Shown here: positions 19,937 through 28,771 of the stretch, in pieces | How the letters are laid out: each line of letters opens with the position of its first letter | Position numbering within the stretch: the first letter of the stretch is position 1 | Source: Syntrophaceae bacterium | GTDB lineage: Bacteria; Desulfobacterota; Syntrophia; Syntrophales; Smithellaceae | Assembly (NCBI GenBank): GCA_003142535.1 | Contig: PLMQ01000068.1 | Span: forward strand, 1-64,000 | Direction: 5' to 3' | DNA length: 64,000 nt | Position numbers and translations under genes: made by a program | The notes under the pieces: generated by a model | Seen by the model: only the letters and a program-made list of their open reading frames with translations | The model's database searches: none | Told to the model about the DNA's origin: nothing

Positions 19937-19983
19937 TGGTGGGTCGTGCGGGGATTGAACCCGCGACCAACGGATTAAAAGTC
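19937..19983 (-). tRNA. 3' half of tRNA-Lys(TTT), probable attL
   Basis: Read on the minus strand, it gives the anticodon loop with TTT (GACTTTTAATCCG), the variable loop, the T arm GCGGGTTCAATCCCCGC, the acceptor strand CGACCC and the encoded CCA. Identity to a tRNA stops abruptly at the anticodon stem: the D arm and 5' acceptor strand are absent. Site-specific recombination into tRNA genes leaves exactly this. The intact gene would be rebuilt at the other end of the element. No second copy is visible up to 64000. Confidence 0.85.
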
Positions 19984-20118
19984 GGGAAAAGCCCAAAAAC
20001 ACAAGTATGAACAAGTAACAATAATGAAGCATATTATGAACAATAATAAACATTTACACTGAAAAGCTTTCTCCGATAGTTCACCTTTTTTCACTATGCT
20101 TACTCATAGTTTTTGATC

Positions 20119-20623: not shown

Positions 20624-21667
20624 ATGAGTAATGCCATTATTGGCAATAACTCCGCAGCATCCACGCTAACCGATTTGGATATTCTATCAACGGAATATCC
20701 AGCACCAGCCTTTATTATTCCCGGTTTAATTCCATTGGGATTAACAATTTTTGCCGGAAAGCCTAAGACCAAAAAATCAATGATGGCCATGGATATGTGT
20801 TTTGCAGTTGCTAGTGGAGGAAGATTTTTGGATGCAGACGTTGAACAGCACGAGGTGTTGTATCTTGCCCTCGAGGATTCGGAACCCCGCATCCAGTCGA
20901 GGTTACGTGCTATGATTGGAGATTCAATCGGGACCGGCAAACTTTATTTTGAGACGAAATGGAATCGTTTGGATGCCGGCTGCATGGAGGATCTGGAAAA
21001 ATGGATACAGCAGCACCCTCATGTGAAACTCATTATTATTGATACGTTAAACAGAATAAGAGGGTTTACACGTCAAGGTTTGTCAATAGCAGAAAAAGAT
21101 TACGGAGAGATTGGAAAGCTCAAGAACTTTTGCGACAGACATTCGATTGCCGTAATCTTGATCCATCATTTGCGAAAATCAGAATCACAGGATGTTTTGG
21201 ACATGATATCAGGATCTACCGGACTGACAGGTGCTGCCGACACATTAATTGTATTAAAAAAAGACAGAGGTGAGGAATCGGCACAGCTTTTTGTCACAGG
21301 CCGAGATATAGAGGATAGGAACATACATCTGACATTTAATAAAGAGTGCCTGTCTTGGGAAGTAGCAAATATCAGGACAAATATGAGTCCTGAGCGTGCC
21401 GAAATCCTGGAAATTATTACAAGAGCAGCAAAACCGTTAAAATTGGCGGAAATTGCCGCTACTGCCGGTAAGAAACTCACAACTGTTTATAAGCTTGTGT
21501 CGCATCTGGTCGAATCGAATTATATTGAGAAGACCGGTTACGGCCATTATCAAATTGTTCAAGATGAAGAACAAGCGGTAAATCAAGACACAGAACCCAG
21601 CAGTAACATCGATGCTATATTAACCGCAGACCCTACCGAAAATTTTCAAGAAATGATCGTCAGTTAG
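20624..21667 (+). CDS. RepA/AAA_25-type ATPase with winged-helix tail
   Basis: A 347-residue RecA-fold protein like the RepA helicases and related ATPases of plasmids and phages. The Walker A region is FAGKPKTKKSMMAMD, with Lys in place of the usual Gly before the last KS. Walker B is KLIIIDTLNRIRG, then IAVILIHHLRKS. DMISGSTGLTGAADTLIVL is the usual following block. The last third (from about 265) has a winged-helix pattern (LKLAEIAATAGKKLTTVYKL). It probably unwinds or remodels DNA for replication of the element. AAGGAG-like GAAGGAG precedes the ATG. Confidence 0.8.
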   Translation: MSNAIIGNNSAASTLTDLDILSTEYPAPAFIIPGLIPLGLTIFAGKPKTKKSMMAMDMCFAVASGGRFLDADVEQHEVLYLALEDSEPRIQSRLRAMIGDSIGTGKLYFETKWNRLDAGCMEDLEKWIQQHPHVKLIIIDTLNRIRGFTRQGLSIAEKDYGEIGKLKNFCDRHSIAVILIHHLRKSESQDVLDMISGSTGLTGAADTLIVLKKDRGEESAQLFVTGRDIEDRNIHLTFNKECLSWEVANIRTNMSPERAEILEIITRAAKPLKLAEIAATAGKKLTTVYKLVSHLVESNYIEKTGYGHYQIVQDEEQAVNQDTEPSSNIDAILTADPTENFQEMIVS

Positions 21668-21758: not shown

Positions 21759-21794
21759 AGGCTATTTCTCGAGAGGGGAATAGCCTATTTTTTT
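21759..21794 (+). terminator. Rho-independent terminator after the ATPase gene
   Basis: AGGCTATT (21759-21766) pairs with AATAGCCT (21779-21786), followed by a T-rich run to 21794. The loop is CTCGAG-containing. It separates the ATPase from the small acidic gene. Confidence 0.75.
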
Positions 21795-22164: not shown

Positions 22165-23157
22165 ATGGAAGCAAAAGCACTGACAGAAAAACAACAAAAT
22201 GATCCCGAAATAAATGAAGTACAGCAGACGGAAGCGATCGACTATACAAGATTCTCAGATTCCACGAGCGTAGTCGATATTGTGAAATTCGTGAACAAGC
22301 ATACCTTGATCGACAATGGCGGTATTTTTGGCAATATTAATGATTTTATTAATACGCCCGTTCCAGAACGAGAGACGGATAAAATTGTTTTAGCCAAAGC
22401 CGGCCTCGCCCTTTTAAATGAGTTTAGCGGCATGTTTAATATTGCCGAGCACGGCGTGGAAGCGGTTTTCACTAAATACAGCATAGCCCGAGGTTTAATT
22501 CTCATCCAATTAAAGAAGATTATTAAGAAAGCGGGGCAATCTTGGGATGCATGGGCAACAATTAATATTCCTCTTTTATCCCAGCGTACCAGAATTGACA
22601 ATATGAGGCTCGCTTACAGATCAGACTGTCATCAATATTATGTTTTAGGCAGCGATCGCTTATTATTGCTTATCCGTGCAACTGAAGAACACAAGGGTGA
22701 TGATAAGATCGGACAGTTTATGACAAGACGTGGAATAAAATTTAATCCGGAATCAAGAGATGAAATAAAGAAGTTCAAGGCTGAAGTAGATACGGCTCTC
22801 AATACAGAGAAGCTGGAAAAAGTCGGCGTCAAAGCTAAGCCGCAAAATGTAAAGGCATTGTCGCAGTATAGATCGTCAATGGACAACAATTTTATTATGA
22901 CAGCTAAGGCAGTAGTTGACTCCGGCGGCGACGTCGACAAACACTTTGAAAAAATAATTTTGAATAAAGGAAAAGAACGGAGCCCTTTCGAGGTTTCTCA
23001 TGCGGTGAAAGACTTTAATTTTTCCGGGGCAAAACTTATCCAGATCATAGATTACATGTTCAAAAACGAAGACACAATTGAGACTCTGGACGCGGAAATA
23101 GTCATAGAGCTTCAGGAAAAGCTCACAGAGCTCAAGAAATTTGCCAATATTCAGTAA
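22165..23157 (+). CDS. Unknown element protein, 330 residues
   Basis: No family recognised. It has no signal peptide or membrane helix and is mostly predicted helical and charged. A conserved-looking central region runs RTRIDNMRLAYRSDCHQYYV, then LGSDRLLLLIRATEEHKGDD. The C-terminal part ends in Leu/Glu/Lys-rich helices (ELQEKLTELKKFA). GGAGG precedes the ATG. It lies 17 bases before the DpdA-like gene, so the two may act together. Confidence 0.6.
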   Translation: MEAKALTEKQQNDPEINEVQQTEAIDYTRFSDSTSVVDIVKFVNKHTLIDNGGIFGNINDFINTPVPERETDKIVLAKAGLALLNEFSGMFNIAEHGVEAVFTKYSIARGLILIQLKKIIKKAGQSWDAWATINIPLLSQRTRIDNMRLAYRSDCHQYYVLGSDRLLLLIRATEEHKGDDKIGQFMTRRGIKFNPESRDEIKKFKAEVDTALNTEKLEKVGVKAKPQNVKALSQYRSSMDNNFIMTAKAVVDSGGDVDKHFEKIILNKGKERSPFEVSHAVKDFNFSGAKLIQIIDYMFKNEDTIETLDAEIVIELQEKLTELKKFANIQ

Positions 23158-23174: not shown

Positions 23175-24050
23175 ATGATTTTATATTTATCAAGCCTGGA
23201 TTCACAAAGGCTGTATCAATATTATGAGATAACCGGAGAGAAAGCCAGTGCCCTTTTATCATATGCCCTGCTCGGAAGCGATACAACAGAGATGGCAAGA
23301 GAACGCGGGCAAAAATTAAATAGCCTGATTCTGGACTCCGGCGCATGGACTGATCAGAGAAGCCCTTCGCCAACAGATATAGACGACTATATTAACTATC
23401 TCAGTGTTGCCGGGAAGTATTATGATTTTTACTTTAATCTCGATCAGGATTTTGACGAGAATGTTTTTTCCGGCACTAATCTGAAAAATTTATTAAAAAT
23501 GGAAAAAGCGGGATTGAAGCCGGTTCCGGTTATTCACAGTTTATATACCGGAGAAATCGAATATTACATCGACAAAGGCTATCCAATTGTTGCTCTTGGC
23601 TCCTCTTATGCGACTAGGCTCGATGCACTAAAATTTGTGTTTGAGAAATTTGAAAAACACCCCGATGTCAAGATACATGTTTTTGGCACAACAAATTATG
23701 AAAACCTGATTGAGGTGCCAGTTTTTTCCGTAGATTCATCCAGCTGGGGAACTATGGGCAAATTCGGTAATATCGCTTTTTGGAATCCGGAGAGCGAGGA
23801 AACAGACAAATCGGAATACATCTATCTGGACCGCTATTATCATACGGATAAGCCGGCAGAACATCATTTTGCCACTTACTATTGCAAGAGGCTGCTTGAA
23901 GAATATTTGGCAAAGACGTTTAACTTCACCTATCACGACTTTCTTGGCGAAGGTGGGTATTACAATATGCAGGTTGTTAACTTGCATCATTATATCGAGT
24001 TGGAAAAAAGAATAACGGCGGAACACAGAAAAAGAGGCTTTATTTCTTAA
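23175..24050 (+). CDS. TGT/DpdA-like base-exchange protein
   Basis: A 291-residue protein resembling the tRNA-guanine-transglycosylase-like DpdA family of phages and islands, which swaps guanine in DNA for a 7-deazaguanine. The supporting pattern is a TIM-barrel-like alternation with LDSGAWTDQRSP (equivalent to the DSGG of TGT), FYFNLDQDFD, GLKPVPVIHS, IVALGSS, KIHVFGTTNYENL and a second Asp in FSVDSSSWGTMGK, where the nucleophile would lie. No preQ0 synthesis genes (queC, queD, queE, folE) or DpdB are in the window. The family match is by eye and a different TGT-like role is possible. Confidence 0.6.
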   Translation: MILYLSSLDSQRLYQYYEITGEKASALLSYALLGSDTTEMARERGQKLNSLILDSGAWTDQRSPSPTDIDDYINYLSVAGKYYDFYFNLDQDFDENVFSGTNLKNLLKMEKAGLKPVPVIHSLYTGEIEYYIDKGYPIVALGSSYATRLDALKFVFEKFEKHPDVKIHVFGTTNYENLIEVPVFSVDSSSWGTMGKFGNIAFWNPESEETDKSEYIYLDRYYHTDKPAEHHFATYYCKRLLEEYLAKTFNFTYHDFLGEGGYYNMQVVNLHHYIELEKRITAEHRKRGFIS

Positions 24051-24161
24051 ACTAAAAACGCAGGAATCCGCGAATTTATACAAGGAGGTGATTAAAAAAT
24101 ATGAGATGAAAATGTAACGAATAAAATTAGACGAAAATCAAAACTATAATGTCGGCAGGGG

Positions 24162-24190
24162 GGCCAGGTTTTCTTAACTGGCCTTTTTTT
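24162..24190 (+). terminator. Rho-independent terminator
   Basis: GGCCAG (24162-24167) pairs with CTGGCC (24178-24183), followed by T7. It ends the transcript from the DpdA-like gene. Confidence 0.8.
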
Positions 24191-24226
24191 ATTTTCAAAA
24201 CTAAAAAATCCAAGGAGGATTTAAAA

Positions 24227-24727
24227 ATGAAAAGATTATTAGGAAAAGAACAGCAGATTTTTGATGATATGAAAAAGTGTTTCACGTCGTACGGTCTGAA
24301 AATATTTGATGAATTAAAGAAAAATGATCAACTTATGATTTTCTCAAAATTTGAATACCGGAATTATAATTTCGGTATTGCGGCTATATATCACGCTGAC
24401 GGAGATCTTGTTGAAATCAGCACTGTATATACAAATATATCTAAGAACAAGATTAAGCCTGTAGCTGAACTCATGAATCATATTAATTCCTACATCATGA
24501 GCGGTCACTTCTATGTAGTTTATTCAACAGGCGCAATGTCCTTCAGGACAGCGATTCATGTAACCGATACCCTCAACAAGGATGACTTTGAGTGGGCTTT
24601 AGATCAGGTTATGTCTGCCAGCTACAAATTTTTTCCCATGATCATTGATCAAATATTCACTGAGATGGAACCGCTGGAAATTATAAAAAAGCATCTTGAA
24701 GAAGAACCAATGGAGGTGCAACCATGA
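24227..24727 (+). CDS. YbjN-like domain protein
   Basis: A 166-residue protein. The start at 24227 is chosen because AAGGAGG lies at good spacing; an upstream frame would run through the terminator. The fold pattern (LVEISTVYTNISKNKIKPVAEL, then MNHINSYIMSGHFYVV, then LNKDDFEWALDQVM) resembles the YbjN / type III secretion chaperone-like fold. No catalytic residues are expected. The role is unknown; YbjN-like proteins often act as small adaptors. It overlaps the next gene by ATGA. Confidence 0.5.
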   Translation: MKRLLGKEQQIFDDMKKCFTSYGLKIFDELKKNDQLMIFSKFEYRNYNFGIAAIYHADGDLVEISTVYTNISKNKIKPVAELMNHINSYIMSGHFYVVYSTGAMSFRTAIHVTDTLNKDDFEWALDQVMSASYKFFPMIIDQIFTEMEPLEIIKKHLEEEPMEVQP

Positions 24728-25212
24728 AAAAGAAAAATAAGCAGCGTGAAGTTAAGCGATTATTGATTTTCAGTACTGATTTCGGTTTTGTTATTCATGC
24801 ATCTAATGCTAGGCCTTTCTTTCCGACACACACTCATGGTCTTGCGGAGATGGGTATGCCGGAATTCATCTTTGATCCCCTTGCTTTTGGGGCGAAAGGT
24901 AATGCAAATAGAATAATTAAAGTTTATAAGTATTTATCAAAGCCGGAAAACGCAAGTCAACTGGATGATATTAAACACGGTATGACAGTCAGGCTTACTC
25001 CAAAGGAGCTTATCCCTGATTATACCGGTACTGATAAAGATAATGCTGACAATATTTTCTATGTGCGGAAAGTATCTCCGGATTTTGAAGGCGTAAAGCT
25101 TGCTTATTTTCCGGAAGATATAACCCCCGGCATGTGGTTTATTCAGATCTCTGTCGAAGGTGATGATTATGTATTGACGGATGAGTATTACCGCGGCGGT
25201 ATTAAGTGGTAA
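24724..25212 (+). CDS. DUF4262-like protein
   Basis: A 162-residue protein. THTHGLAEMGMPEFIFDPLA resembles the start of DUF4262, a small family common in phages and plasmids, with IIKVYKYLSKPENA after it. The C-terminal part (VDGDDYVLTDEYYRGG-like) fits the same family. The biochemical role is not known. It overlaps the YbjN-like gene, so both are likely to be made together. Confidence 0.4.
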   Translation: MKKKNKQREVKRLLIFSTDFGFVIHASNARPFFPTHTHGLAEMGMPEFIFDPLAFGAKGNANRIIKVYKYLSKPENASQLDDIKHGMTVRLTPKELIPDYTGTDKDNADNIFYVRKVSPDFEGVKLAYFPEDITPGMWFIQISVEGDDYVLTDEYYRGGIKW

Positions 25213-25235: not shown

Positions 25236-25273
25236 AAAGGGACTTGTTCACTATATGGAACAAGTCCCTTTTT
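25236..25273 (+). terminator. Rho-independent terminator
   Basis: AAAGGGACTTGTTC (25236-25249) pairs with GAACAAGTCCCTT (25258-25270), followed by T5. A long, strong stem. Confidence 0.88.
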
Positions 25274-26246: not shown

Positions 26247-26447
26247 ATGAACATCGAGAAGAAAATACAAATTAATCTGGCAATCCCCGAGAGCTATCGG
26301 AATTTACTCCGCAGAATGGCTGCCATGAGAATGATGGAGAACCCATGGATAACTACCACAGGAACAGCCATAGCCACAGAGCTGTTATTAAAGGCACTGG
26401 AAGAGATTGGAAAATTTAATAATGACGTAGGAGAAACTGAGAAATGA
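26247..26447 (+). CDS. Small protein before the primase, possible RHH
   Basis: A 66-residue protein, ATG preceded by AAGGAGG. The N-terminal strand (KKIQINLAIPESYRNLLRRM) followed by two helices resembles a ribbon-helix-helix DNA-binding protein, though the second helix is less typical. It overlaps the primase start by ATGA and so probably controls or assists replication. The family assignment is tentative. Confidence 0.5.
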   Translation: MNIEKKIQINLAIPESYRNLLRRMAAMRMMENPWITTTGTAIATELLLKALEEIGKFNNDVGETEK

Positions 26448-28771
26448 CAAATGAAATTGACTTATCAACGGAAGAATCCATAAAAGCGGCAACCAACTTT
26501 TTAAATGCTATATTCAACTTCTCTCTAAATCAAAATATGGGTGAAATCGAAATTCGAACATTTAGACCCAGAGCAGAATCTTATTTCTTTAGCTCTGCAC
26601 CGGCCGCAGCTGAATTAGCTATTGATCTTTGCAATCAGGGTATTGACGTTTATGTCGGCGTGAATCCCAGAACAGGTCGACAGGGGAAAAAAGAGAATGT
26701 CCATTATCTAGCAGCTTTTCATGCGGAGATTGATTACGGGAAATTTGGCCACAAAAAAGAAAATGAATTTGCAAACTACGATGAAGCCCTTGATGCAATC
26801 AATAATTTTGATCTTGCACCTTCAGTCGTAATTCATTCCGGTGGCGGATTTCACTGCTACTGGGTTTTAAATGTTCCGCTGCGTGTTGAGGATTATGAAA
26901 TTGCTACACTCGAGAATGTTAATAAAGCTTTGAGTCAATCGCTTAATGGTGATTCAGGAACTCATGATATTTCTCGTGTGTTGCGTATTCCGGGAACTTT
27001 CAATTTCAAAAATTCGGATAATCCCAGACCAGTTGAAATAATATCTATGAATGGGTTGAAGTATGAGCTCTATGATTTCAGCGAAGTGCTGGCGAACTTA
27101 AAAGATGAGCCCATTAAAGCTAAGATCACACCAGAGAAGAAACTTATTCCGCAAGCTGATATTATAGCACCTGTTCAAGCTCAAGCAGTAAATGATATTG
27201 AAATAGAAAATCTATCTGTATCTGAAAAGATTAAATCCCTTATCCTGCATGGAAATGATGGTTCCTATTCATCCCGCAGTGAAGCGGATATGGCTGTAAT
27301 ATTATCACTTGTTACTAAAGGGCTGAGTGAAAACGAAATCAAAAATATTTTTGAGACATATTCTGTAGGATCTAAGTATCGGGAACATTCAGCGCCGGAG
27401 AATTATCTAAAGCATAATATCCAAAAGGCGAAAGAGCTGTCTAACCTGACTGACGAAGAGATGCAGAATCCTTTGTTCATATCAGGTTCGATATCCAAGA
27501 CAGAAAAAGGGCTAAACTTAAAGATATTGAATTTTGAAGAATACATGGTGAAAAAATATAAAATAAAGATTCTTGATCAGGAAAGCGCTTTCTTTAAATA
27601 CAATGGTAAGTGCTATGAGCAATGCACCGAAAAAACCCTGAATAATTTATGTCAAAACGAACTGGCGACTCACAGAAATTTATTTAGCAAGTCAAACCTG
27701 AATGAATTGATCCACTACGCTATTGGTGATGCTCTAATTAACAGTGATAATGCGAGAATCAACCAGGTTAAATATCTGACTTTGCAGAATGGACTTTATG
27801 ATCTCGATGAGGGAGAATTGATTGACCATTCCCGTAACATCTTCACAACCAATCTTTTACCATATGATTATGATCCAGCAGTAGCATGTCCCCGGTTTAT
27901 TCAGTTCCTTCAGGAAATATTTGAGAATGATCAGGAGAAGATTGACTTTGTGCAGGAGGCTGTAGGATATGCTTTTCACAAATCATTGCCCACGCCGGCA
28001 GTATTCTTTCTGGTCGGTAGCGGGAGCAATGGAAAATCTGTCTTTATCAATACCATTGCCAATCTCGTAGGTAAGGAAAATACCAGCAACATAAGCTTCA
28101 ACGCATTATCTGATGAAAGATATGTTCTGGAACTCTTCCAGAAAATGATCAATATCTGCGGGGAGACCCCTTTGGGAAGACATATTGAAACGGGCATAAT
28201 AAAGTCGGTTACTGCCGGAGACTGGATAACAGGTAGAGAAATATACAAGTCACCAATGAAGTTTCGACCATTTGCCAAGCACTTTCTGGCTATGAATAAA
28301 CCGCCAATCATTTCCGACCCATCCCATGGAATGTGGAGAAGAATATGGATACTGGAATTCAACAGAAGATTTACGGAAAAAGATATGGACAGGCAGCTGG
28401 AAGAAAAGCTTATCAATGAACTCTCAGGCATCTTCAACTGGGCACTGGAAGGTTACAACAAATTAAAGGAAAAGAAATTTGCTTTAAGCGAATCTACGTC
28501 CATGAAGATATCGAAGAAAGAATATCGTGATGATATAGACAGCATCAGGGCTTTTGTAAAAGATAGGTTTATCAAGTCAAATGATGCAAGAGATTTGATT
28601 ATTTTCAGCGAAACTTATGAATTATATAAAAGTTATTGTCAGCTTGAAGGAAAGAAAGATATACAGGTGAAAACCGACTTCAAGAAAACATTAATCGATA
28701 TTGGCTATGAAATAAAAAGTTCCAGCAGATGCAATAATAAAGTCTGTATATTTAATGTGAAGATGAATTGA
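26444..28771 (+). CDS. P4-type primase-helicase
   Basis: A 775-residue replication protein. Residues about 1-230 form an archaeo-eukaryotic-primase-like domain with the metal-binding cluster (FHAEIDYGKFG) and HSGGGFHCYWVL. A small helical domain follows (about 260-345, SRSEADMAVILSLVTKG). The D5-N/poxvirus-type superfamily 3 helicase comes last (about 470-720), with Walker A FFLVGSGSNGKSVFINTI, then INICGETP and GREIYKSPMKFRPFAKH. The winged-helix tail follows. Such proteins start replication at their own origin in P4-like satellites and plasmids. It is the main reason to call this region an autonomous element. Confidence 0.88.
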   Translation: MTNEIDLSTEESIKAATNFLNAIFNFSLNQNMGEIEIRTFRPRAESYFFSSAPAAAELAIDLCNQGIDVYVGVNPRTGRQGKKENVHYLAAFHAEIDYGKFGHKKENEFANYDEALDAINNFDLAPSVVIHSGGGFHCYWVLNVPLRVEDYEIATLENVNKALSQSLNGDSGTHDISRVLRIPGTFNFKNSDNPRPVEIISMNGLKYELYDFSEVLANLKDEPIKAKITPEKKLIPQADIIAPVQAQAVNDIEIENLSVSEKIKSLILHGNDGSYSSRSEADMAVILSLVTKGLSENEIKNIFETYSVGSKYREHSAPENYLKHNIQKAKELSNLTDEEMQNPLFISGSISKTEKGLNLKILNFEEYMVKKYKIKILDQESAFFKYNGKCYEQCTEKTLNNLCQNELATHRNLFSKSNLNELIHYAIGDALINSDNARINQVKYLTLQNGLYDLDEGELIDHSRNIFTTNLLPYDYDPAVACPRFIQFLQEIFENDQEKIDFVQEAVGYAFHKSLPTPAVFFLVGSGSNGKSVFINTIANLVGKENTSNISFNALSDERYVLELFQKMINICGETPLGRHIETGIIKSVTAGDWITGREIYKSPMKFRPFAKHFLAMNKPPIISDPSHGMWRRIWILEFNRRFTEKDMDRQLEEKLINELSGIFNWALEGYNKLKEKKFALSESTSMKISKKEYRDDIDSIRAFVKDRFIKSNDARDLIIFSETYELYKSYCQLEGKKDIQVKTDFKKTLIDIGYEIKSSSRCNNKVCIFNVKMN

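Follow-up and report, generated by a model that had tools for sequence, protein, structure and literature searches.

The 64,000-nucleotide stretch of DNA analysed here (the window) carries a gene for a DpdA-like transglycosylase, dpdA, at positions 23175-24050 of the forward strand. The frame is unbroken, begins with ATG and encodes 291 amino acids. A ribosome-binding site, AAAAAGGAGAAACCAAAAATG, lies ahead of it, and a gap of 17 nt separates it from the gene directly upstream (22165-23157, forward strand), which encodes a protein of 330 amino acids that we call UpA. Two further genes follow on the same strand. The first (24227-24727) encodes a YbjN-family protein (PF10722, E 1e-7) with homologues at three of the loci compared (L010, L011 and L012); its longest frame starts at 24149, and the start at 24227 was preferred because the ribosome-binding site (sequence 24213-24229) and conservation both favour it. 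The second (24724-25212) encodes a protein of 162 amino acids, here called THTHGL, which has no Pfam or NCBIfam family and is 50-51% identical to the C-terminal half of the proteins of L011 and L012, in which it is fused to YbjN. A presumed likeness of the THTHGL protein to DUF4262 was rejected, since no such Pfam match was obtained up to E 10. A YbjN-like gene follows dpdA in the window, in a second copy on contig C29 of the same genome, and in L011 and L012; the THTHGL sequence occurs in the window, L003, L011 and L012.

The four genes are flanked by forward-strand hairpins resembling intrinsic terminators, one upstream of UpA (21759-21786) and a strong one of 14 pairs after the unit (25236-25271). 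Between dpdA and ybjN, the stretch 24051-24226 contains, in order, a short hairpin just 3' of the dpdA stop (CGCAGGAATCCGCG, CGCAGGA..CTGCG, 24059-24072, forward strand) that is kept in all five loci compared, a strong Shine-Dalgarno sequence with a two-codon open reading frame (ATG AGA TGA), and a terminator-like hairpin (24158-24190, forward strand). The stretch looks like an attenuator ahead of ybjN. As a whole it folds no better than shuffled sequences (z 0.38), and all Rfam matches in the region fall below gathering scores. The same non-coding stretch is largely near-identical in the genome's second element (at the L009/L010 junction), although the DpdAs of the two elements share only 39% identity.

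Genes typical of mobile elements lie nearby on the forward strand, as an earlier reading of the sequence alone had proposed for the surroundings of dpdA. They include an AAA_25 or RepA-like ATPase with a C-terminal winged helix (20624-21667; PF13481, E 5e-28) and a P4-family primase-helicase (26444-28771; TIGR01613, E 2e-68, with PF08706 and PF19263) that is 71% identical to that of L011. A 66-residue protein (26247-26447) shares 77% identity with a counterpart in the second element. At the probable left edge of the element, the reverse strand holds the 3' half of a tRNA-Lys(TTT) gene (19938-19985), which is probably what remains of an attachment site.

Family, fold and relatives of the DpdA protein

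The sequence-only reading had called the protein DpdA-like and had pointed to DSGA and VDSS positions as a catalytic pair of aspartates. Both motifs are present, as D54-S-G-A and V186-D187-S-S, and D54 and D187 are the predicted catalytic residues. In an alignment of 25 relatives that includes the DpdA of phage CAjan and reaches down to about 25% overall identity, D54, G56, D90, H121, G142, H168 and D187 are identical in every sequence. The product matches PHROG 887 (E 3e-25) and PHROG 7068 (E 5e-10), both of them phage families annotated as queuine tRNA-ribosyltransferase, and tblastn with it gave matches to 123 phage records. Its identity to CAjan DpdA is 27.5% over residues 51-235 (E 2e-8). 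Pfam and NCBIfam have no family for the protein, PF01702, the Pfam domain of tRNA-guanine transglycosylase (TGT), gave no match, and the CxCxxC zinc motif is absent from all 25 relatives; the window protein has a single cysteine in its 291 residues.

An AlphaFold2 model built from 45 sequences has a pLDDT of 86.1 and a pTM of 0.85. The top Foldseek match to the PDB is murine TGT (TM 0.60, E 6e-5); unrelated TIM barrels rank behind it, with scores that TGT exceeds only modestly. Among viral models, matches reach E values of about 1e-11 to 1e-12, and some of these proteins are annotated as queuine tRNA-ribosyltransferase; R9TGF0 of Vibrio phage nt-1 was also recovered (E 4e-6). Sequence searches of solved structures with the protein gave no convincing match. 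The predicted fold is thus a TGT-like TIM barrel, and the profile, the fold and the aspartate pair together bear out the DpdA-like identity. Because the PHROG matches, the fold and the conserved residues fit while the zinc motif is absent and PF01702 does not match, the product is, on sequence and structure model, a member of the DpdA family and not a TGT.

The same genome (G000) encodes a second DpdA, on contig C29, with 39% identity to the window copy, and further members of the clade were found in related genomes and in a Desulfobacula MAG. In maximum-likelihood trees, eight DpdAs linked to UpA are set apart by a branch whose support is 100/99, and the preQ0-linked phage proteins sampled, 13 in one tree and 17 in the other, all fall outside this clade. 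Searches of viral contigs with the window DpdA, its nearest relatives or UpA returned no relatives; phage-type queries did find matches. Judged from these trees, the window DpdA belongs to a clade that contains none of the preQ0-linked phage DpdAs sampled, and because of this separation its substrate could differ from theirs.

Among 80 viral relatives, defined as IMG/VR loci encoding phage-type DpdA relatives, 67 have at least one of folE, queC, queD and queE no more than 3 kb away, and preQ0 genes likewise sit beside dpdA in the phage records that were inspected. In Microbacterium phage Megan (L158, 670-2543), two tandem divergent DpdA-like genes adjoin a QueC-like gene. A relative on a 249-kb Paenibacillus plasmid (NZ_CP020864; L136, 5509-6636) is without neighbouring preQ0 genes. 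It is annotated as hypothetical and has a divergent DPGE in place of DSGA, and a DNA adenine methylase gene and radC lie close to it.

Integrative elements and the upstream gene UpA

The tRNA-Lys 3' half at the left edge is the only copy in the assembly, and in some relatives an intact tRNA-Lys lies near the same neighbouring thioesterase gene. As no intact tRNA-Lys matching the search pattern was found in this assembly, which is rated 100% complete, the intact gene may fall where the assembly has a gap, or its sequence may be different. A right-hand end of the window element was sought and not found, and no integrase was seen near this dpdA copy. Integrases are present in L009, L012, L013 and L029. 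On contig C29 (L009/L010) UpA, DpdA and YbjN lie beside tRNA-Sec and a tyrosine integrase, and L013, with its integrase, adjoins a tmRNA gene. Replication genes vary: the window and L011 have a P4-type primase, L012 a PrimPol-DnaB. The dpdA loci of this clade, where their surroundings are visible, look like small integrative elements, several of them at tRNA or tmRNA genes.

A UpA homologue lies directly 5' of dpdA in eight of ten loci (the window, L009, L011, L012, L027, L003, L013 and L029), those of L013 and L029 being weak but significant profile matches (E 2e-8 and 4e-6, in a small database); none was recognised upstream of dpdA in L028 and L030. A radical-SAM gene is also present in the L029 element. 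Among the 80 phage-type dpdA loci, no UpA was found at E 0.01. The protein has no Pfam or NCBIfam family and its PHROG matches are weak only. We rejected the idea that UpA is a relative of ParB, since it has no profile similarity to mycobacteriophage ParB-like proteins.

In genome G189 three homologues of UpA were found, and the stretches read there contained no DpdA; an obligate DpdA subunit was rejected as an identity for UpA on that ground. In this genome (L045, 5892-8503) a DUF1848 gene stands in the place of dpdA after a UpA homologue, near a P4-type primase. UpA may accompany enzymes other than DpdA. The earlier suggestion that the 330-residue gene is a partner of dpdA holds in so far as the gene recurs beside dpdA in most loci of the clade, and falls short in that the family also occurs apart from dpdA; for the latter reason we read UpA as probably a DNA-handling protein of the element rather than a dedicated subunit. 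The UpA-DpdA pair looks like a functional unit, because it stays together while integrase and replication genes change between loci.

Proposed function and alternatives

No preQ0 genes were found among the genes of the window element, in line with the sequence-only reading, which had assumed that the pool of the host would be used; matches to QueC and TGT are on other contigs of the genome. The genome search for queCDE that it proposed located queC-queE-queD as a cluster on contig C47; contig C28 encodes a genuine TGT. Since the genome has queC-queE-queD, preQ0 can be made by the host, and a host-supplied pool for the element's DpdA is plausible.

Phages and bacterial Dpd islands are known cases of 7-deazaguanine in DNA, and the phage DpdA family exchanges guanines in DNA for modified bases. 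We consider it rather probable that the window DpdA likewise uses TGT chemistry to replace guanine in the element's DNA with preQ0, or a derivative of it, made by the host, and so shields that DNA from restriction. The protein would act as an active transglycosylase with a TIM barrel and take guanine out of DNA, with D187 forming a covalent aspartate intermediate and D54 serving as the acid/base, and preQ0 or a close derivative would go in place of the guanine. Lacking preQ0 genes itself, the element would depend on the queuosine pathway of the host for the base. Most likely this would serve to hide the element's own DNA from restriction enzymes while it replicates or is transferred. UpA would probably be co-transcribed with dpdA, and probably brings DpdA to the element's DNA or otherwise handles that DNA. 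The presence of 7-deazaguanine in the element's DNA is inferred. Deletion of dpdA in phage CAjan abolishes dPreQ0 in the phage DNA; a point against the proposal is that some phages with DpdA alone show no modification or modification of only 0.02% of their Gs (PMC6884629).

An alternative that we regard as unlikely is that modification is directed to particular sites instead of serving as bulk disguise. UpA would supply sequence specificity and DpdA would mark certain guanines, for example at the origin or the attachment site, in order to control replication or to recognise self. The recurrence of the pair across elements with differing integrase and replication genes is consistent with this, as are the ParB-like genes that open the dpdA operon in two mycobacteriophages and the cooperation of bacterial DpdA with the ParB-like DpdB (PMC12839542). 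In UpA, however, no domain of a DNA-binding or ParB-like kind was detected; the UpA structure model, from two sequences, is unusable (pLDDT 45), and UpA is also found without DpdA. An equally doubtful version is a two-part targeted system in which UpA would recognise the element's DNA, at its origin or attachment site or in its replicating form, and DpdA would write host-made 7-deazaguanine there. If true, UpA-DpdA would be a non-methyl self-mark by which a small mobile element tells its own DNA from that of the host or a helper.

Less likely again is an RNA substrate, with the enzyme as the element's variant of TGT acting on tRNA or another transcript. TGT is the nearest solved fold, and host tRNA and preQ0 are available. 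Against this stand the lack of a PF01702 match, the absence of the zinc motif from all 25 relatives, the fact that the host already has its own TGT, and the action of characterised phage relatives on DNA (PMC6884629).

A role in defence, in which DpdA marks host or other DNA within a restriction-type system, appears slightly more improbable still. In bacterial Dpd islands DpdA is found together with restriction genes, and BREX-related systems include homologues of TGT (PMC12839542). In the present case PADLOC gave no match for DpdA or UpA, and the four-gene unit has no nuclease or helicase partner. Nor did TIGR03187, a model for DGQHR-type (DpdB-type) proteins that may not cover every DpdB, find such a gene in the genome. 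That dpdA is vestigial or inactive is very improbable: the truncated tRNA site and the lack of a visible integrase nearby suggest that the element may be decaying, but the gene has an intact frame, all catalytic residues, a good ribosome-binding site and a conserved gene order.

Comparison with known DpdA systems

The DpdA family itself is already known; what appears new, from sequence comparison, is a DpdA clade in integrative elements, usually accompanied by UpA. We found no description of DpdA in such elements, or of its pairing with UpA, in a literature search whose scope left many subscription papers, including core Dpd ones, outside. If the modification holds, phage-type DNA disguise extends to small non-phage elements that borrow a queuosine precursor of the host, and UpA-DpdA offers a compact gene pair for testing how DpdA is targeted.

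Bacterial TGT and the window DpdA share the fold and the order of catalytic residues; the window protein differs in having neither a PF01702 match nor the zinc motif, and the TGT of this host is encoded elsewhere. The bacterial Dpd islands, with DpdA, the ParB-like DpdB and further genes, resemble the window locus in having DpdA in a genomic island with a possible helper (PMC12839542). They differ from it in that no DGQHR-type gene was found in the window genome with TIGR03187 and UpA has no profile similarity to the ParB-like proteins tested. The dpdA operons of Mycobacterium phages Cracklewink and Quesadilla (L159, 202-2050, and L160, 1-1634) begin with a ParB-like gene. In Quesadilla this gene immediately precedes dpdA, and in Cracklewink a small open reading frame lies between the two; it recalls the ParB-like DpdB of bacterial Dpd islands but has no profile similarity to UpA.

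Phage DpdA2, represented by the Vibrio phage nt-1 protein R9TGF0 recovered in the structure search, has the same fold and is more distant from the window DpdA (TM 0.46, 14% identity). The DpdA of CAjan/9g phages (Queuovirinae, PHROG 887) has, like the window protein, a TGT-like barrel, no zinc motif and a length of about 300 amino acids, and the aspartate motifs DSG(A) and VDSS/CDSS are common to both. In these phages preQ0 genes lie beside dpdA and UpA is absent, unlike the window locus; the window DpdA, by contrast, belongs to a separate clade, resides in a non-phage integrative element and would depend on the preQ0 of its host.
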